Below are positions 1,871-9,061 of a DNA stretch of 9,855 bases, in pieces. The translations under genes were made by a program, and so were the position numbers. How positions within the stretch are numbered: the first letter of the stretch is position 1; each line of letters begins with the position of its first letter. The notes below the pieces were generated by a model, which saw only the letters and a list, made by a program, of their open reading frames with translations, had not been told where the DNA came from and made no database searches. Origin of the DNA: Myxococcota bacterium (lineage in GTDB: Bacteria > Myxococcota > Polyangia > GCA-2747355 > JAKLHH01); NCBI GenBank assembly GCA_022710245.1, contig JAKLHH010000189.1, forward strand, positions 1 to 9,855, written 5' to 3'.

Positions 1871-3118
1871 TCAGGCGACCGCGGAGGAGCTCGCGGTCGG
1901 TGCCACCGTCGCCGCGCCGCCCTCGCGGGTGATCCGCTCGACGGCGGTCGCCAGGCCGTGCTCGTGGGCGAGCTGCCGCGAGATCTCCCTCGCCCGCTGG
2001 CTGAGGGAGCGATCATAGAGGAGCGCCCGGAAGCTCCCCGCCAGCCGGCGCCAGCCGACGCGGCCGGTGAGCGCGGCGGGGGCGACGCCGAGGCGGTGCA
2101 GGCGGTGGCCCCAGTAGAACTGGTCGGCGAACTGCGGGAGGATCACCTGCGGCACGCCGGCGCGCGCGGCCGTGTGCACGGTCCCGCTGCCGCCCGCGTG
2201 GACCACGCCCGCCAGGTAGGGGAAGAGCTGCGCATGCGGGAGCTCGCCGACGCAGAGCACCTCGCCGCTGACGCCCCGGCGCCCGAGGCCGGTCCAGCCG
2301 CGGGCGAGGAGCAGCCGGCAGCCGACCTCGCGCGCGGCGCGCACCGCGGCCTCGGTCATCCGCTCCGGGTGCTTGATGCTGACGCTGCCGAAGCCCATGT
2401 AGATCGGCGGCGGCCCGGCCTGCGCGAAGCGCACCACCTCGTCGGGTAGCTCGCCCTCGCTGGCGATGTCGATGGCGCCCGTGTAGCTGTAGGGGTGGCG
2501 CCACTCCGGGTCCGGCGCCGAGAGCGTGGGGCTGAAGGCGAGGAGCGTGTGGCTCCGCTCGGCGAAGTAGTCCGCCAGCGAGCGGATGCGGGGCAGGCCC
2601 AGGCGGCGCCGCACGCGCTCGAGCTGGCCGCGGGCGAGGAGCCCGATGCCCTGGGTGAGCGCGATCCACATCAGGCGGTTCGCGGCCGGCGGCAGGTTGG
2701 GCCAGGGCAGCAGCGGCGGCGGCCCCGAGCCGATCAGCACCGGACAGTAGGCGACGCGGAAGTGCGGGATGCCGAGCGCCTCGGCGACGGTGGGCGCGGT
2801 CGGCTCCGTGTGGCCGGTGACCAGGACATCGGCGCCGCGCGCTGCCTCCAGCACCACCCCCGCGCGCTCCTCGAGCCCGCTCGACATCCAGCGGAGCGCC
2901 TGCTTCGAGGCCTCCCAGCTGGAGCCCATGTCCGCCATCGCCTGCTCGATGTCCTCGTGGTAGAGGTGCGGCTCGAGGCCGGCGCGGCGGGCGGCGGGCT
3001 CGAAGTAGGGCGCCACGCAGAGGTCGACCTGGTGCCCCCGCCGGTGCAGCGCGCCGGCGATGGCGATGACCGGATACACGTCGCCGCGCGAGCCGCGGCC
3101 GACGAGGACGACCTTCAT
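1871..3118 (-). CDS. GT1-family (UGT/MGT-type) glycosyltransferase
   Basis: 415 residues from ATG 3118, which overlaps the upstream radical SAM stop as ATGA, so translation is probably coupled; a longer in-frame start at 3328 would lie deep inside that gene. Family features: an N-terminal Rossmann start with RGSRGDVYP (8-16, the G.(R)GD..P motif of sterol/macrolide/flavonoid glucosyltransferases), a second domain opening with MGFGS (241-245), and the nucleotide-sugar motif HAGGSGT (307-313), continued by G.P at 321-323, P328 and DQ at 332-333. Length is normal for a complete GT-B enzyme. It should move a sugar from a UDP- or TDP-sugar to a small molecule, lipid or peptide acceptor in the cytoplasm. 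The acceptor cannot be read from sequence. Its coupling to a radical SAM enzyme suggests sequential tailoring of one product. Confidence 0.92.
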   Translation of the reverse strand: MKVVLVGRGSRGDVYPVIAIAGALHRRGHQVDLCVAPYFEPAARRAGLEPHLYHEDIEQAMADMGSSWEASKQALRWMSSGLEERAGVVLEAARGADVLVTGHTEPTAPTVAEALGIPHFRVAYCPVLIGSGPPPLLPWPNLPPAANRLMWIALTQGIGLLARGQLERVRRRLGLPRIRSLADYFAERSHTLLAFSPTLSAPDPEWRHPYSYTGAIDIASEGELPDEVVRFAQAGPPPIYMGFGSVSIKHPERMTEAAVRAAREVGCRLLLARGWTGLGRRGVSGEVLCVGELPHAQLFPYLAGVVHAGGSGTVHTAARAGVPQVILPQFADQFYWGHRLHRLGVAPAALTGRVGWRRLAGSFRALLYDRSLSQRAREISRQLAHEHGLATAVERITREGGAATVAPTASSSAVA

Positions 3119-4407
3119 GCCTGCACCTGCTCCTCGGCCCCGGCGCGGGGCGAACGCGGGCGCGGCGCCGGCGCGCGGCCGATCTCGCCGAGGAGGGCCG
3201 GGTCGATCTGCGGGAGCGACAGCTTCGAGCCCTGCCGCCGCCACTGGATGGCGCCCCAGGGGATGCGGAAGAGGAGCGTCTTCGGGCTGAACTGGAGCGA
3301 GCTGATCACCCAGCAGCCGTGCGTGCACCAGCAGTTCGCCCGGTGCCCGCCGCCGATCGCCTGGATCTCCCGCCGCATCGCCTCGGAGGTGAGCGCGGCG
3401 CGGAGGTCGTAGCCGTAGTCCTCGAGGCGCCCGATCGGCGGCCGCAGCTCGCAGGCGCGGATGGAGCCGTCGTGGTCGATGACGGCGGTGGTGAGGCCGG
3501 CGGTGCAGTCCATGCCCCAGGGCGTCGGCCCCTCGACGTTCTCCTCCTGCACCGTGTACATCAGCCGCAGCGTCCCCAGGAAGAAGAGCTTGGCGAACCA
3601 GCGCGCGCGCGGGTCCACGTTCTCGAAGAGGCGGTCGGCCATGCGGTCATAGAGCGGGAAGAGCTCGAGGTGGAGCTGCTCGAGCTCGGCGCGCGTGAGG
3701 CCCTTCAGCGACGGGTCGCGCGGGTTGCCGCGGACGTTCTCGAAGAAGTGCGTGCCGGCGCAGTTGCGCTCCATCAGGTAGGCCCCGACCGAGAGCATCT
3801 GCTCGCGCGTCTCCCGGGTCACCACCGTCGCGATGTTGCGGACCAGCCGCGGGTGGCCGCCGAAGCGGGCGCCGATGCGGTCCATGGTGTCGAGGACGGT
3901 GCGGAAGCTCCCGTCGATGCCGCGGATGCGGTCGTGGGTCGCGCCCAGCCCGTCGACGGAGAAGTTCAGGTGGATGGTCAGCTTGGGGCAGCTGTCGAGC
4001 AGGCGCGCCACGATCTTCTCGGCGCGGTCGGGGAGGCTGCCGTTGGTCGGGAAGTTGATCGAGCGGATGCCGTTCTGGTGATAGAAGAGCTCGATCACCT
4101 CGGCGAGGTCCTCGCGCAGGCAGGGCTCGCCGCCGGAGAGCCAGAGCTTGTCGAAGTGCGGCACGCTCTCGGCGACCTTGCGCAGCTGCTCGAAGCTGAG
4201 GTCGGTGCCCTGGTTCAGCGTCTCGTGCGCGAAGCAGGTGCGGCAGCGCGAGTTGCAGCGCGAGGTGACGAAGAGGAAGACCGACTCCAGCGAGGGTCGC
4301 CGGAGGATCTTGCGCAGGAAGCCGGCCTCGCCCAGGTGGACATCGGTCTTGCCCGCGCGGGGGCTGAGGAGCTCGCGGAGGACGCCGGTGACCTTCTCGA
4401 TCTGCAT
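3115..4407 (-). CDS. Radical SAM enzyme with SPASM/twitch-like C-terminal cysteines
   Basis: 430 residues from ATG 4407, with GGGGAG 6 nt upstream; the longer GTG start at 4434 has no such site. The [4Fe-4S]/SAM motif is C51-xxx-C55-xx-C58 (CNSRCRTC), followed by SGGEP (91-95), the SAM amino-group loop. A C-terminal region carries C301-x12-G-x4-C319 (CTAG...DGSIRAC), the opening signature of SPASM/twitch auxiliary-cluster domains, then C359, C361 and C365 (CWCTHGC). This is fewer cysteines than a canonical seven-Cys SPASM, so one auxiliary cluster (twitch) or a variant is likely. The last 65 residues are a non-SPASM tail rich in Pro and Arg. Such enzymes often modify peptides (RiPP maturases, anaerobic sulfatase-maturase relatives), but sugar- or lipid-acting members exist. 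It is first in the operon and coupled to the glycosyltransferase. Confidence 0.9.
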   Translation of the reverse strand: MQIEKVTGVLRELLSPRAGKTDVHLGEAGFLRKILRRPSLESVFLFVTSRCNSRCRTCFAHETLNQGTDLSFEQLRKVAESVPHFDKLWLSGGEPCLREDLAEVIELFYHQNGIRSINFPTNGSLPDRAEKIVARLLDSCPKLTIHLNFSVDGLGATHDRIRGIDGSFRTVLDTMDRIGARFGGHPRLVRNIATVVTRETREQMLSVGAYLMERNCAGTHFFENVRGNPRDPSLKGLTRAELEQLHLELFPLYDRMADRLFENVDPRARWFAKLFFLGTLRLMYTVQEENVEGPTPWGMDCTAGLTTAVIDHDGSIRACELRPPIGRLEDYGYDLRAALTSEAMRREIQAIGGGHRANCWCTHGCWVISSLQFSPKTLLFRIPWGAIQWRRQGSKLSLPQIDPALLGEIGRAPAPRPRSPRAGAEEQVQA

Positions 4408-4448
4408 GATGATCTCCCCTCTCTGTGGGCTCACGGCCCGGGGGCCAG

Positions 4449-4477
4449 ACTGTAGCGATCGGGGAGGCGCACCTCAA
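4449..4477 (-). promoter_or_regulatory. Sigma70-like promoter for the radical SAM-glycosyltransferase operon
   Basis: On the minus strand, TTGAGG (4477-4472) and TACAGT (4454-4449) are separated by exactly 17 nt. Each hexamer matches 4 of 6 consensus positions. A start site near 4442 would leave a leader of about 35 nt before ATG 4407 that includes the GGGGAG ribosome-binding site. Spacing and position are good; the call rests on motif only. Confidence 0.5.
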
Positions 4478-4512
4478 GGGCGCGGTCCTCGACCACCGCA
4501 CTTTCTGCCTCG

Positions 4513-4542
4513 AAGGTGACGGAGGTGACGCGTTTTCGCGTC
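4513..4542. promoter_or_regulatory. Direct repeat and hairpin in the divergent intergenic region
   Basis: GGTGACG occurs twice close together (about 4515-4530). The second copy runs into a perfect hairpin, GACGCG-TTTT-CGCGTC (4527-4542). It lies between the two divergent radical SAM genes and upstream of the minus-strand promoter, where an operator could sit. Its function is a guess, and the TTTT loop shows it is not a simple intrinsic terminator. Confidence 0.25.
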
Positions 4543-4577
4543 GGCGCTGACGCCTTCCGGCCCGGGGCCGATCTGCG

Positions 4578-4741
4578 CTAGACCCAAGACAAGCGCATGA
4601 GCCGTAGCGAGGAGGGCGAGACCGAGGCGAGGCAAGGAGGGCCGACGAAGTCGTACTTCTGATACTTCGAGAAGGCCCGACGCCGTATCGCCGACGGTAT
4701 CGCCCTCCGCTGTAGGCGACATGCGCTTGTTTTGGGGCTAG
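4578..4741. repeat. 164-bp imperfect palindromic element (MITE-like) with CTAG ends
   Basis: The two 22-bp ends (4578-4599 and 4720-4741) are inverted copies with 20 of 22 matches, both starting CTAG and including ACAAGCGCATG. Symmetry about 4659.5 continues inward: GGAGGGCGAGACCG at 4611-4624 faces CGGTATCGCCCTCC at 4695-4708 (13 of 14 paired). The core holds GGGCC/GGCCC (4639-4643, 4674-4678) and CGAAGT/ACTTCG (4646-4651, 4664-4669). The whole element could fold as one long hairpin in DNA or RNA. It has no convincing gene. CTAG at both ends could be a palindromic 4-bp target duplication or part of the terminal repeat. It resembles a non-autonomous transposon derivative or dispersed intergenic palindrome; copy number elsewhere is unknown. 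Its right edge abuts the start of the next gene. Confidence 0.75.
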
Positions 4742-4742
4742 A

Positions 4743-5705
4743 GTGGCGCGCATGCCTCCCCGCTGGCGCAGCTGGCCCCTCGACGGCAAGCTCCTCCGCT
4801 TCGACCGCGAGACGGGTGTGAACCAGCTCCTCTCCGGCGAGGAGACGGCGCACCTGCGGCAGCGCGCGCCGCGCTTCATGCACGTGGCGCTGACGAACGC
4901 CTGCAACAAGGAGTGCTCCTTCTGCTACCGCCCGGCCGGCGTGGTGAGCCGCTGGAGCTTCGACGAGCTCCTCGCGCTCGCGCGCTGGGCCACGGAGTGG
5001 GGCGTCCTCGAGCTGACCTTCGGCGGCGGCGAGCCGCTGGTCTTCCCGCGCTTCGACGAGCTGCTCCGGCGGATCTGGCAGGAGACGCCGCTCTGCCCGA
5101 GCTTCACCACGAACGGCGTCGCGCTCGACGCGGCGCTCCTGCGCAGCATCCAGGGATGCTACGGGCAGCTGCAGCTCTCCATCTACGACGACGAGCAGCC
5201 GCTGGAGAAGATCGCGCTCCTCGTCCGCGAGGGGGCGCGCTTCGGGCTCAACGTGCTCGTCACGCCGGAGCGGCTGCGCACCCTCGAGCTCGACGTCTAC
5301 CGCTGGCACCGCGCCGGCGCGCGCGACCTGCTCCTGCTCAGCTACAAGGGGAGCGACGACGAGCTGCACCTGTCGCCCGACGACGACCGCCGCCTCGTGG
5401 CCAGCGTGCGCCGCCTGCGCGAGCGCTTCGGCCCCGGCCTGGTGTTCAAGGTCGACGTCTGCTGGCGCGAGCGGGTGGCCGGGCTGCCCCAGCTCCTCGA
5501 CGAGCCGGACTGCGGCGCCGCGGACAGCTTCCTCTCGCTGAGCGCCGACCGGCAGGTGCAGCCCTGCTCCTTCCACGAGCAGCGCGTCCCCTTCGAGAGC
5601 TTCGACGAGATCCCGATCATCTACGAGCAGCTCCGCCGCGCGTGTCCTCGCGCCGCGGCGCGTGGCTGCGGGCGCCCCACACCCCTTCAGCCCCGAGGAG
5701 AGTGA
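4743..5705 (+). CDS. Radical SAM protein with degenerate SPASM/twitch-like C-terminus
   Basis: 320 residues from GTG 4743 (GGGG 5 nt upstream, supplied by the palindrome edge) or 317 from ATG 4752, which has no good ribosome-binding site; the start is uncertain. Counted from the ATG, C51-xxx-C55-xx-C58 (CNKECSFCY) binds the [4Fe-4S] cluster, and GGGEP (91-95) contacts SAM. C254 and C272 have the same spacing as the first auxiliary-cluster pair of the divergent radical SAM protein, but the usual Gly of the DG.V.PC stretch is Arg267 (DRQVQPC). Only C298 and C306 follow, so an auxiliary cluster would be incomplete or unusual. The protein has the length of a minimal radical SAM core plus a short tail. 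One base separates its TGA from the next ATG, so it is translated together with the mosaic protein, its probable partner or substrate. Confidence 0.9.
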   Translation: MARMPPRWRSWPLDGKLLRFDRETGVNQLLSGEETAHLRQRAPRFMHVALTNACNKECSFCYRPAGVVSRWSFDELLALARWATEWGVLELTFGGGEPLVFPRFDELLRRIWQETPLCPSFTTNGVALDAALLRSIQGCYGQLQLSIYDDEQPLEKIALLVREGARFGLNVLVTPERLRTLELDVYRWHRAGARDLLLLSYKGSDDELHLSPDDDRRLVASVRRLRERFGPGLVFKVDVCWRERVAGLPQLLDEPDCGAADSFLSLSADRQVQPCSFHEQRVPFESFDEIPIIYEQLRRACPRAAARGCGRPTPLQPRGE

Positions 5706-5706
5706 G

Positions 5707-7785
5707 ATGGAAGTCCACGTCTGGCGGTCCTTCTCCAGCAACAACAGCAGCGCCTACCGCCTGGTCGCCCGCTTCGAGAGCGAGGAGCAGGCGGCGGCGG
5801 CGAAGCCCGAGCTCCTGGCCTTCATCGAGGCGCACGCGAAGGAGGTCGATGAGACCGAGAACTGGGACGACCCGACCGCGGCGCAGCAGGCGCTGGCGAA
5901 GAAGCACGGCTACACCTTGCGCCGGAACGCCATCCTCAGCTGGGGGGACGAGGGCCTGGGCGGCGACGAGCCCGAGCTCGCCGTCTCCGGCAAGACGCTG
6001 GTCATGTACCACAGCTACTGCGGCGGTCTGCAGGAGGGCTTCGGCCCCTACCTGCAGGCCGTCGGCGCGAAGGTCCTCGAGGAGGAGCGCGAGGCGCCCG
6101 AGGTCGCCGTCTTCCTCACTCTGCCCGAGGGCGCTCGCGGCACGAAGCTGCGCGAGGCGCTGGACGCCTACTTCGCGCAGAGGGAGAGCGGCGCCTCCCT
6201 CGACGAGTGGAGGCAGGCGCCCTGGGTCTCCGGCGGTCGGCACCGCGTGCCCTACGCCGAGGCCGAGGACGTCCTCTACTACTGCGACGGCCAGCGCCTC
6301 GGCTTCCAGCTCCCCTTGGAGCTCCGCGGCCTCGACGCGCTCACCACGTACCTGAAGGAGAGCGGCGCCCCGGACTACCGCCTGCTCCTCTGCGATGACG
6401 AGCTCAAGCAGAAGCTGACGGTGCTCTCGCAGACGCGCCGCTGCCCCGAGTGCAACGCGACGAGCCTGCGCTACCTCCCGGCGGCGAGCGAGCGGCTGGA
6501 GGAGGACCAGCTCCTCTGCGAGGGCTGCGGCGGCATGTTCACCCTGGCCAGCGCCGCCCGGCTGCGCGACTCCGAGAAGGCGGTGGACGCCTGGCTGGAG
6601 AAGAAGGGCGTGCAGCGGGTCTGCCCGCGTTGCAGGGGGGAGGAGCTGCCGCTCCGCGCGGGAGAGAAGCCCGAGGACGCCGAGCTGGTCTGCGTCGGCT
6701 GCGGCGAGCGCGTCACGCTGAAGGCGCTGGTCGCGGCCTCGCCAGCCCAGCGCCTGGCGGGCGGGGGAGTGCTCAACGTCGTGCACGGCGCGGGCAAGAG
6801 CGTCTTCGTCGGCGATCGCGGCGGCACCGTCTACCGCTCCACCAATGGCGGCAAGGCGTTCAAGAAGGCGAAGGTCGAGGGAGCGCCGAGCCAGCTCTTC
6901 GGCCTCCACGCGGTCTCGGAGCAGGTCGTCGTGGTGGCAGGCTACGGCGGCCTGCAGCGCTCCGAGGACGGCGGCGAGACGTGGAGGCCGGTGCCATGCA
7001 AGGCAACCGGCTACCTGTTCTCCTTCACGCGCGCCGCCGACGGCACGCTCTGGCTCGCGGCCACCGGCGCGCTCTGGCGATCTCGCGACGAGGGGCGCAG
7101 CTTCACGCGCGTGAAGGTGCCCTTCTCGGGCCACATGCTGCACGTGGCGCAGGCGTCGGCGAAGGTCTTCTACGCGGTCGGCCACCAGGGCACGGCGCTG
7201 CGCAGCGAGGACGGCGGCAAGAGCTGGAAGGAGCTGACCTCCGGCGTCAGCCGCCCGCTCTGTCGCGTGCTGGCCTTCGACGAGCAGGAGGCGGTGGCGG
7301 TGGGCGACGGCGGCGTCATCATCACCACGGCCGACGGCGGGGCCAGGTGGACCAAGCGCAAGAGCCCGACCACCGCGGATATCGAGGGGCTGGTGCGCGG
7401 CAACGACGGCCGCCTCTACGCCGTCACCGCCGGGGGCGAGCTGCTGATCTCGGCCAACCGCGGCAAGGCCTGGGAGAGGCAGTCGAGCGGCGCCAGCACC
7501 CACCTCTGGAGCCTCTGGCCGAGCCCCGCGGGCACGCTCTTCCTGGTGGGCCAGGGCGGTCTCCTCGTGCGGCGCGACGACCTCGACGTCCCCCTCTCGA
7601 TCGCGGCGCCGGAGAAGAAGGCGCCGGAGAAGAAGGCGCCGGAGAAGAAGCCCGCCGCGAAGCAGCCCGCCGCGAAGCAGCCCGTCGCGAAGAAGCCCGC
7701 TGCGAAGAAGCCCGCCGCGAAGAAGCCCGCCGCGAAGCAGCCCGCCGCGAAGCAGGCCGCCGCGAAGAAGCCCGCCGCGAAGTAG
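5707..7785 (+). CDS. Mosaic protein: unknown N-domain, two zinc ribbons, Asp-box propeller, (PAAKK)n tail
   Basis: 692 residues from ATG 5707 (GAGGAG 6 nt upstream; the 5662 alternative lacks this and overlaps the radical SAM gene). Residues 1-235 form an unrecognised domain opening with VWRSFSSNNSSAYRLVARF. Two zinc ribbons follow: C246-xx-C249...C271-xx-C274 and C306-xx-C309...C329-xx-C332. Residues 350-622 carry six Asp-box (BNR/Ycf48-like) repeats at 378, 419, 459, 500, 541 and 582, a period of 40-41 residues (for example SEDGGETW, SEDGGKSW), indicating a beta-propeller. Residues 634-692 are three APEKK and nine PAAK(K/Q) units, like AlgP/histone-H1 tails. There is no signal peptide or membrane segment, so it should be cytoplasmic. 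The zinc ribbons and basic tail suggest nucleic-acid or protein binding; the propeller suggests a scaffold. It is tightly coupled to the radical SAM gene upstream. No function is assigned. Confidence 0.92.
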   Translation: MEVHVWRSFSSNNSSAYRLVARFESEEQAAAAKPELLAFIEAHAKEVDETENWDDPTAAQQALAKKHGYTLRRNAILSWGDEGLGGDEPELAVSGKTLVMYHSYCGGLQEGFGPYLQAVGAKVLEEEREAPEVAVFLTLPEGARGTKLREALDAYFAQRESGASLDEWRQAPWVSGGRHRVPYAEAEDVLYYCDGQRLGFQLPLELRGLDALTTYLKESGAPDYRLLLCDDELKQKLTVLSQTRRCPECNATSLRYLPAASERLEEDQLLCEGCGGMFTLASAARLRDSEKAVDAWLEKKGVQRVCPRCRGEELPLRAGEKPEDAELVCVGCGERVTLKALVAASPAQRLAGGGVLNVVHGAGKSVFVGDRGGTVYRSTNGGKAFKKAKVEGAPSQLFGLHAVSEQVVVVAGYGGLQRSEDGGETWRPVPCKATGYLFSFTRAADGTLWLAATGALWRSRDEGRSFTRVKVPFSGHMLHVAQASAKVFYAVGHQGTALRSEDGGKSWKELTSGVSRPLCRVLAFDEQEAVAVGDGGVIITTADGGARWTKRKSPTTADIEGLVRGNDGRLYAVTAGGELLISANRGKAWERQSSGASTHLWSLWPSPAGTLFLVGQGGLLVRRDDLDVPLSIAAPEKKAPEKKAPEKKPAAKQPAAKQPVAKKPAAKKPAAKKPAAKQPAAKQAAAKKPAAK

Positions 7786-7880
7786 CCCGCCGCGAAGGAG
7801 CCCGCCCGCGAAGTAGGCCGCCCGCGAAGGTGCCCGCCCGCGAAGGTGCCCGCCCGCGAAGGTGCCCGCCCGCGACGTAG
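7606..7880. repeat. 15-bp tandem repeat coding the Lys-Ala tail, continuing as 16-bp units past the stop
   Basis: Three GCGCCGGAGAAGAAG units (7606-7650) are followed by nine CCCGCCGCGAAGMAG-type units (7651-7785). The ninth ends in TAG instead of AAG or CAG and so makes the stop codon. One more 15-bp unit follows (7786-7800), then five 16-bp units, CCCGCCCGCGAAGGTG-like (7801-7880), each with one added C. The frame is kept inside the gene and lost after it, which points to expansion by slippage with relaxed selection downstream. The units abut with no spacers, so this is not a CRISPR array. Confidence 0.9.
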
Positions 7881-7942: not shown

Positions 7943-9061
7943 TCAGGGCAACGTGACGTCAACGACCGGCGTCGTGTTTGAGCAGCTGAAGATCCTTCCC
8001 TTCCCCGTGCGCGGCACGACGCGGTTCCATAGGGCCATCGACCAGTTCAGGACGGTGCCGTTAGCGTCCATGGCCTGTTGACCATAGAGCACGCGACCGT
8101 AGGTCGGTGGTCCGCTGCCCGGCCAGACATTGCCTGGCGCGAGGTCGATTCCAAAATACTCCACGTAGCCTTCTCGCTTCTTGTAGATGTCGTCGTAGTT
8201 CGAATAGATGAGTACCCACCGGGTTCCCATGTCTCCTCCCAGATCGATCTTGCGCAGCGCGTGAATCGTATTGCTGGCAGACGACGGGATCGGGATGCCT
8301 ATCTGCTGCTCACTCCTGAAGACGCAGGGTGACGGAGCAGCGCCGCGGCTCACGGCGTTGCTCATCCCGATGAAAGCGGCCCAGTTGTCGGTCGCGCGGC
8401 CCGGCGGAGGCACCGCGAACGTCACCCGTGTCCCCAGCGTGTTCGGGATCAGGATCTGGGTTGGCAGAAGTGGCAGAAGGCCGGGGAACTTCGAGGTCTC
8501 GGGCCAGAGCGGCCCTCCCCAAGTTGCGCTCGTTGCGCCTGTCGCGGGGGCAAGGACGTTCGTGGGGTTCTTCATGGCCCCCGTAGAATACAGGCCGAAC
8601 GTGTTTCCCACGTTGCCGTAGACGTCGAGGACTCCGAAAGGAGCGACGGCACCGGTCGAATCCTTGGCCTCCATCTCGATCAGGTAGTCCTCCTTCGTGA
8701 CCCAGTCGATGAACGGATGCGGTTGCCAGGGGACACCGATGTAGTTCCGAACGAGGCCTGGTAGCTTCACGCGAGAGGCGTTCGGATACGTGCGCGCGAA
8801 GCCCTTGCGGGAGTACCAGAAGTTGATGTCCGCCGGGGCCAGCGTGCCGGTGTAGATCGTCTTCTGGAAGAGGAGTGACAGGTTCGCGGTGGTTGGAACG
8901 AAGGTGGGGACCTTGTCCCAGCTCGTCACGTAGGCCATCGTCTCCCGTCCTTCCGCGGCCTCCTCGCCTGGCGCTCCCTCGGTGCCGATGGCCCCGTCGC
9001 AGCCGGGCGCGATGAGGACAGCCCCGAGGAGCCGCAACCACGAACGCGCGATGTGTCTCAT
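7943..9061 (-). CDS. Unrecognised lipoprotein of lower GC
   Basis: 372 residues from ATG 9061, with GAGGTG 5 nt upstream. The N-terminus has Arg residues, a hydrophobic core ([10 protein letters not shown]) and Cys21, a likely but imperfect lipobox because Ala sits at -3. A Gly/Glu-rich linker runs to about 40. The mature part contains many Trp, Tyr, Pro and Asn and looks beta-rich and extracytoplasmic; Cys246 and Cys360 could form a disulfide. I recognise no family. Third codon positions are far less G/C-biased than in the neighbours, and the gene has clearly more A/T, suggesting horizontal acquisition or a young lineage-specific gene. It is convergent with the mosaic-protein gene and divergent from the hydrolase, so it is probably transcribed alone. 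Its leader carries a duplicated ribosome-binding site. Confidence 0.85.

Follow-up and report, generated by a model that had tools for sequence, protein, structure and literature searches.

The 9,855-nucleotide stretch of Myxococcota contig JAKLHH010000189.1 studied here, to which we refer as the window, carries on its plus strand a gene for a radical S-adenosylmethionine (SAM) enzyme and, one base after its stop codon, a gene for a 692-residue multidomain partner protein. The pairing of this enzyme with the N-terminal domain of the partner is not due to chance. It is found again in several bacterial groups, in some cases as a single fused protein or next to an immune-type gene, and therefore looks like an undescribed system. 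Our best reading, to which we assign a probability of roughly 0.57, is that the enzyme acts on or through a short N-terminal segment of the partner, as a protein-level system, most likely by modifying this segment near an [HN]-S pair (histidine or asparagine followed by serine). The features on which this reading is built are as follows:

4743..5705, plus strand: radical SAM enzyme gene; 320 amino acids (aa) from GTG 4743, or 317 aa from ATG 4752; stop 5703-5705
5703..5709, plus strand: stop-G-ATG junction, with a single base between the two genes
5707..7785, plus strand: partner protein gene; 692 aa from ATG 5707; relatives are 74% identical over the N-terminal domain
5707..6411, plus strand: N-terminal domain of the partner, residues 1-235; tandem ferredoxin-like fold in the model, distant relative of DUF6375
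5722..5748, plus strand: conserved WRSFSSNNS at residues 6-14; proposed to be the place of modification or docking, from its conservation and its coil state, at lowered confidence, in the model

An earlier note on this DNA had placed the two genes at 4743..7785, which is right, and had seen in the large protein a substrate, carrier or scaffold of the enzyme. The coupling that this implies is borne out by co-occurrence and fusions, and that the partner itself is modified is what we infer. The note had also raised the recurrence of the domain beside radical SAM genes, and this has proved to be the case. When species genomes were scanned with the enzyme alignment, 29 radical SAM loci came up, in records whose titles include Myxococcales, Myxococcota, Kofleriaceae, Polyangium, Deltaproteobacteria, Chloroflexi, Anaerolineae, Planctomycetota and a cyanobacterium. 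By profile search, the partner domain lies on the strand of the enzyme in 25 of these 29 loci, and in five loci (L021-L025) enzyme and domain share one reading frame. At a further locus (L009) the contig stops just after the enzyme, and its last bases, in another frame, still read VRISVWQQFSSNHSARFT, the segment at the start of a partner.

The two families also keep company when searched for separately. A search of 282 Myxococcota genomes with the domain alignment matched 14 places in 12 genomes. Twelve of these places are new loci (L040-L051), of which 11 also hold a radical SAM relative, the exception being L044, and five (L045, L046, L048, L049 and L051) are fusions; the seed loci L002 and L025, both paired, account for the rest. 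Of the 12 domain-bearing genomes, 11 have a radical SAM relative within the same locus. The enzyme alignment, searched against the same 282 genomes at E 1e-35, matched 11 genomes, 10 of which are common to the domain search (Fisher p 9.7e-16; 4.7e-13 when the seed genomes G025 and G002 are excluded). In the Planctomycetota (the phylum of G023), 3 of 199 genomes were matched, each time next to or within a radical SAM gene; in a Chloroflexota sample, the single match among 251 genomes was the seed genome. Since in these large alignment-based searches no more than 5 to 7 first-look candidates were scored in each genome, copies may have been missed. The last protein search with the N-terminal domain profile yielded 7 proteins. 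Two additional fusions appeared as second loci (L071 and L072), and a recount over all loci gave 12 distinct in-frame fusion open reading frames (ORFs) in 10 genomes.

Eight loci, seven from Chloroflexi or Anaerolineae plus L006, carry two to four partner ORFs per enzyme gene, with four in L012, and many partners from Chloroflexota, at about 200 to 350 aa, have little beyond the domain itself. Eight partner regions (L068, L069, L070, L073 and L075-L078) lack a local enzyme gene. Several of them, on short contigs or at the edges of contigs, may be fragments of one array; all come from the 29 enzyme-bearing genomes, and because these were chosen for the enzyme, the eight regions are no proof that such copies need it. 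With respect to a third gene, 87 of the 131 neighbouring ORFs of window-type loci were scanned, and none was recurrent: the commonest Pfam family at E 1e-5 occurred in 4 of the 87, and defence matches were sporadic.

The most conserved part of the domain is the Ser/Asn cluster near its N-terminus, which the earlier note had picked as a natural target. At the start of the partners the consensus reads W-x-x-F-[SA]-S-N-[HN]-S. Over 49 domain sequences, residues 6-14 have a mean Jensen-Shannon conservation of 0.76 as compared to 0.31 for residues 26-235, and the best nine-residue window starting beyond residue 20 reaches 0.51. Of 137 aligned rows, 82 segments were distinct, and 5 gapped ones were left out. 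In the resulting 77 distinct ungapped segments, which include rows of the Pfam family DUF6375, Ser14 and [HN]13 (H in 40, N in 37) are present in all 77, F23 in 76 and W6 in 72, while residue 12 is N in 68, E in 8 and S in 1. An AlphaFold2 model of residues 1-235 (mean predicted local distance difference test score, pLDDT, 90.9; predicted template modelling score, pTM, 0.84) shows two ferredoxin-like halves, whereas residues 1-16 are coil, at a mean pLDDT of 62 (residues 1-10) and 80 (residues 11-20). In a model of the natural fusion L025, the core of the segment, A-S-N-N-S-G (residues 335-340), has a pLDDT under 50. The segment thus is the most conserved part of the domain and yet is not confidently packed on it, as would be expected of a target or docking segment. 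In the fusions it lies internally; hence, a free N-terminus is not required.

The enzyme belongs to the radical SAM superfamily, matching PF04055 at 46.8 bits (cut-off 29.5). Two sets of cysteines stand out:

4902..4925, plus strand: CX3CX2C motif for the [4Fe-4S]/SAM cluster; C51, C55 and C58 (from ATG 4752), invariant in 22 of 22 aligned relatives
5460..5669, plus strand: C-terminal region with the conserved cysteines C237, C254, C272 and C306 (from ATG 4752), invariant in 22 of 22 aligned relatives

The four C-terminal cysteines form a possible auxiliary cluster site. The SPASM model PF13186 is not among the Pfam matches listed for the enzyme at E up to 1, and the conserved cysteines suggest an auxiliary site other than SPASM. 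The best Foldseek matches of a model of a natural fusion (L025, from Polyangium sp. 6x1, 623 aa; pLDDT 84.7, pTM 0.56) are peptide maturases (SuiB, a sactipeptide enzyme and SkfB), which speaks for our reading, and an anaerobic sulfatase-maturating enzyme (anSME) is also among the fold matches. A viperin-like enzyme was considered and rejected. With the pVip model, the other radical SAM protein of the window scores alike (44.2 vs 45.8 bits), such that the score is generic.

Behind its N-terminal domain, the partner is a mosaic whose parts, named already in the earlier note, are all present:

6439..6735, plus strand: two zinc ribbons, CPEC...CEGC and CPRC...CVGC; Cys 246/249/271/274 and 306/309/329/332
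6784..7569, plus strand: Asp-box/Ycf48-like beta-propeller (Ycf48/sortilin type); PF15902, PF14870 and PF02012 above cut-off
7603..7782, plus strand: Lys-Ala-Pro repeat tail; tandem repeat of 15-bp units

Pfam ribbon models match the CxxC...CxxC ribbons below cut-off only. With Ycf48 the protein has the propeller alone in common, scoring 59.2 bits with the equivalog model NF010237 (cut-off 326). None of the 16 Pfam families that are listed at E up to 1 for the partner is a glycyl radical domain.

These rear modules differ from partner to partner. A BRCT domain is found in L002, L027 and P0006-P0008, BRCT with weak propeller matches in L005, a propeller followed by BRCT in P0005 (and, by alignment to it, in P0002 and P0003), HEAT repeats in L007 and WGR in the fusion L024; in the partner proteins of L012 and L014, Pfam recognises nothing else above cut-off. 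It is therefore unlikely that the rear module or the tail holds a general target. The tail had been proposed as an alternative target, and as a general target we reject it. In the close relatives P0002, P0003 and P0005 a comparable linker leads to the BRCT domain (seen by Pfam in P0005 only), and the Chloroflexota partners that were aligned have no tail of this type. Moreover, the repeat array that encodes it (window 7614-7875) extends about 90 bp beyond the stop codon at 7785, and the end of the gene thus lies inside the array. No BRCT domain was found further on in the window, where the sole tblastn match had an E-value of 0.11 and lay on the opposite strand.

The N-terminal domain had been called unknown, and it indeed has no Pfam family above cut-off, but a distant relationship was overlooked. 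With PF19902, the model of DUF6375 (cut-off 27.5 bits), the window domain scores 12.2 bits (E 0.29), the L012 protein 25.8 (E 1.8e-5) and the L007 protein 20.8 (E 6.4e-4), all below cut-off; in a mixed alignment of window-type and DUF6375 sequences, a W, an S, an F and an A are invariant in 12 of 12 rows. The domain is distantly related to DUF6375. A true DUF6375 gene (L047/L052, 139 bits) adjoins a radical SAM gene. Among plasmids, 16 records have a DUF6375 match, 12 of them from Vibrio; in all 16, a radical SAM gene is annotated under or beside the match, and five of the records were opened. In the phylum of G014, 3 of 339 genomes have DUF6375, all with the enzyme, and two of the three matches lie on contigs of the same size as two of the DUF6375 plasmids. 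Phage records gave no DUF6375 match.

Eight distinct DUF6375 loci were studied more closely, five of them plasmid-borne (Synechococcus p11801_1, a Picosynechococcus plasmid, two Deinococcus plasmids and Vibrio harveyi p345-185), the remainder being G839, G937 and G082. All eight have the radical SAM enzyme, and in seven the third gene encodes an Avs2-like STAND ATPase; this gene, too, had been missed in the earlier note. In the D. peraridilitoris locus, a transposase takes its place. The seven Avs2-like proteins measure 873 to 1,423 aa, the shortest being cut by a contig end, and match PADLOC Avs2 models with best E-values of 1e-71 to 4e-113; the stretches that score best lie in the front and ATPase parts and in most cases reach to about position 960 of the 1504 in the profile. 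The six DUF6375-linked enzymes that were aligned have no Cys at the four extra conserved columns, though some have Cys elsewhere. In the window, the eight ORFs scanned gave no PADLOC Avs2 match, and no Avs2-like gene is among the 25 of 35 PADLOC families listed for the scanned neighbours in window-type loci. Two of the DUF6375 loci have further neighbours of note. In G937 (L083 2189-5254, Planctomycetota sample), AbiEi- and AbiEii-like genes stand directly upstream of the radical SAM-DUF6375-Avs2-like operon, and on the conjugative Vibrio harveyi plasmid p345-185 (L060 7397-13873) the operon is followed by the annotated resistance genes qnrVC6 and dfrA.

Taken as a mechanism, our reading would run as follows. 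The enzyme would bind the partner and act on or through its flexible segment W-x-x-F-[SA]-S-N-[HN]-S as the substrate, the tandem ferredoxin-like domain that follows would provide the docking body, and the modification would fall at or near the invariant [HN]-S pair. The modified N-terminal domain would then be an activated head for the module attached to it, namely the zinc ribbons and propeller in the window, BRCT, HEAT or WGR elsewhere, and the separate Avs2-like STAND ATPase in the DUF6375 branch. More tentatively, and doubtful as it stands, one may think of a whole superfamily of radical-SAM-primed switch proteins, in which a ferredoxin-like adaptor head, modified by the enzyme on its invariant [HN]-S segment, licenses a swappable sensor or effector, the Avs2-type STAND ATPase included. 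Such a superfamily would span the Avs2-type loci on plasmids and chromosomal contigs of several phyla as well as the zinc-ribbon/propeller, BRCT, HEAT and WGR versions in myxobacteria and Chloroflexota. If true, this would to our knowledge be the first case in which protein modification by a radical SAM enzyme is built into bacterial immunity resembling that of nucleotide-binding leucine-rich repeat (NLR) proteins.

A number of observations weigh against the enzyme acting on the partner segment. The modification of the partner and its chemistry are inferences that we draw from gene pairing and conservation, and the enzyme also has structural and profile matches to BlsE, viperin and MoaA, whose substrates are not proteins. 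The lack of the four extra cysteines in the DUF6375-linked enzymes makes a single chemistry across the superfamily doubtful. The counts of segment conservation come from profile matches, which favour motif-bearing sequences, and the fusion model, with its pTM of 0.56, does not show the segment in the active site; in the alignment behind this model (A5) the first five residues of the separate N-terminal domain rows are misplaced. The correlation of enzyme and partner distances (Mantel r 0.69, 43 pairs, none of 2000 permutations as high) speaks for the reading, but the permutations leave in the shared species history of the hosts. For two enzyme loci (L018 and L019) the partner domain was found nowhere in the assembly, though these are metagenome assemblies; both come from Anaerolineae genomes, and in both a neighbour of the same kind, 795-796 aa in size, precedes the radical SAM gene. 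At L029 the radical SAM match is partial and has no partner nearby, though the same genome has the pair elsewhere (L074). Among the 282 Myxococcota genomes, G110 has a broken radical SAM fragment that contains an in-frame stop, and no partner, and G071 has a weak domain match with neither motif nor enzyme; G082, the third exception to the overlap, holds a true DUF6375 whose radical SAM neighbour is more distant. Lastly, the distant radical SAM matches (27% identity) on Rhizobium and Agrobacterium plasmids are of a different kind: the one that was opened (L061, from Rhizobium) has no DUF6375 annotation, no motif and no partner.

In a rival reading, the N-terminal domain is not the substrate. 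PqqD-like elements serve peptide maturases as accessory or recognition parts, and the domain could likewise be a recognition subunit of the enzyme, with the substrate in another part of the partner, in the Avs2-like protein or in an unlinked protein. The segment could then be a docking motif, for conservation alone does not separate docking from modification, and the third protein of seven of the eight DUF6375 loci could be the target. We nevertheless hold this to be unlikely: the many short Chloroflexota partners and the two to four paralogs per enzyme fit substrates better, the rear modules are not conserved, and the 87 scanned neighbours (of 131) of window-type loci offer no recurrent third gene as a target.

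It is a rather improbable alternative that the enzyme makes a small molecule, such as a modified nucleotide as viperin or MoaA do, which the partner binds, carries or senses. The weak similarity to viperin and MoaA profiles, the viperins among the structural matches and the immune association of the DUF6375 branch speak for it, but the viperin score is generic and far below the curated cut-off (40.2 vs 180 bits with NF038283), and such an enzyme would not need constant coupling to one conserved segment or repeated fusion. That the two genes merely share an operon and have unrelated functions is a general possibility for any adjacent pair, and here a very remote one, given the recurrence in Myxococcota, Chloroflexota, Planctomycetota and others, the twelve fusions and the matched presence and absence. 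We retain as the best reading that the enzyme acts on or through the partner segment.

With respect to the surroundings of the pair, a GAGGAG stretch precedes the partner ATG at 5707 and could serve as its ribosome-binding site. An imperfect inverted repeat of 164 nucleotides with 47-nucleotide arms (window 4578-4741) ends right before the GTG of the enzyme at 4743, and a 181-nucleotide piece around it has a folding energy of -106.8 kcal/mol (z-score -9.9); it could represent a small palindromic mobile element, or else a transcription signal. An Rfam scan of the window, the repeat included, gave no match at gathering scores. With regard to a short precursor peptide next to the enzyme, the gene that follows encodes 692 aa, and upstream there are mechanical plus-strand ORFs of 21 to 41 aa (4425-4550, 4516-4581, 4597-4662 and 4732-4821), putative at best as genes. 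On the minus strand, a second radical SAM protein of a different type (3115-4434, 439 aa, SPASM match below cut-off) and an EryCIII/UDPGT-type glycosyltransferase (1871-3328), which overlap as listed, are a separate two-gene unit. Two other minus-strand ORFs, 483-1820 (445 aa) and 7943-9061 (372 aa), have no Pfam match at E up to 1.

Few radical SAM enzymes are known to act on folded proteins. The pair described here would be a widespread new combination of enzyme and partner with a nine-residue candidate target; it gives DUF6375 a genomic context and links a radical SAM gene with immune genes of the Avs2-like type. In the open-access literature (PubMed Central), with subscription journals mostly outside its scope, we found no description of the pairing, of DUF6375 or of a radical SAM gene with Avs2.

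The closest known relatives are the DUF6375 proteins, which start with W-x-x-x-[GSA]-[SA]-[EN]-[HN]-S and whose gene lies beside or overlaps a radical SAM gene, like in the window. They differ from the window partner in their size (about 130-143 aa) and in having E in place of N12, and their loci differ in the enzymes, which lack the four extra cysteines, and in the Avs2-like gene that comes next. Avs2, an antiviral STAND NTPase, was reportedly first described as a single gene, whereas in seven of the eight DUF6375 loci it is the third gene beside DUF6375 and the enzyme, and the scanned ORFs of the window have none. Radical SAM peptide maturases such as SuiB and SkfB, from systems for ribosomally synthesized and post-translationally modified peptides, share the enzyme fold and a genetically coupled, ribosomally made partner with the window. 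There, however, the partner is a short precursor, while here it is a folded multidomain protein of 692 aa, and PF13186 is not among the matches of the enzyme. Like the enzyme in our reading, a single anSME serves folded protein partners via a short motif, here C/S-x-P/A-x-R; this motif differs from the segment conserved in the window-type partners, and the window partner has no sulfatase domain. In the FtsH ternary conflict systems, a radical SAM enzyme has been proposed to modify a peptide-effector from a neighbouring gene (Kaur et al. 2020, PMC7159879); these systems are built on MoxR-vWA and FtsH components, unlike the window.

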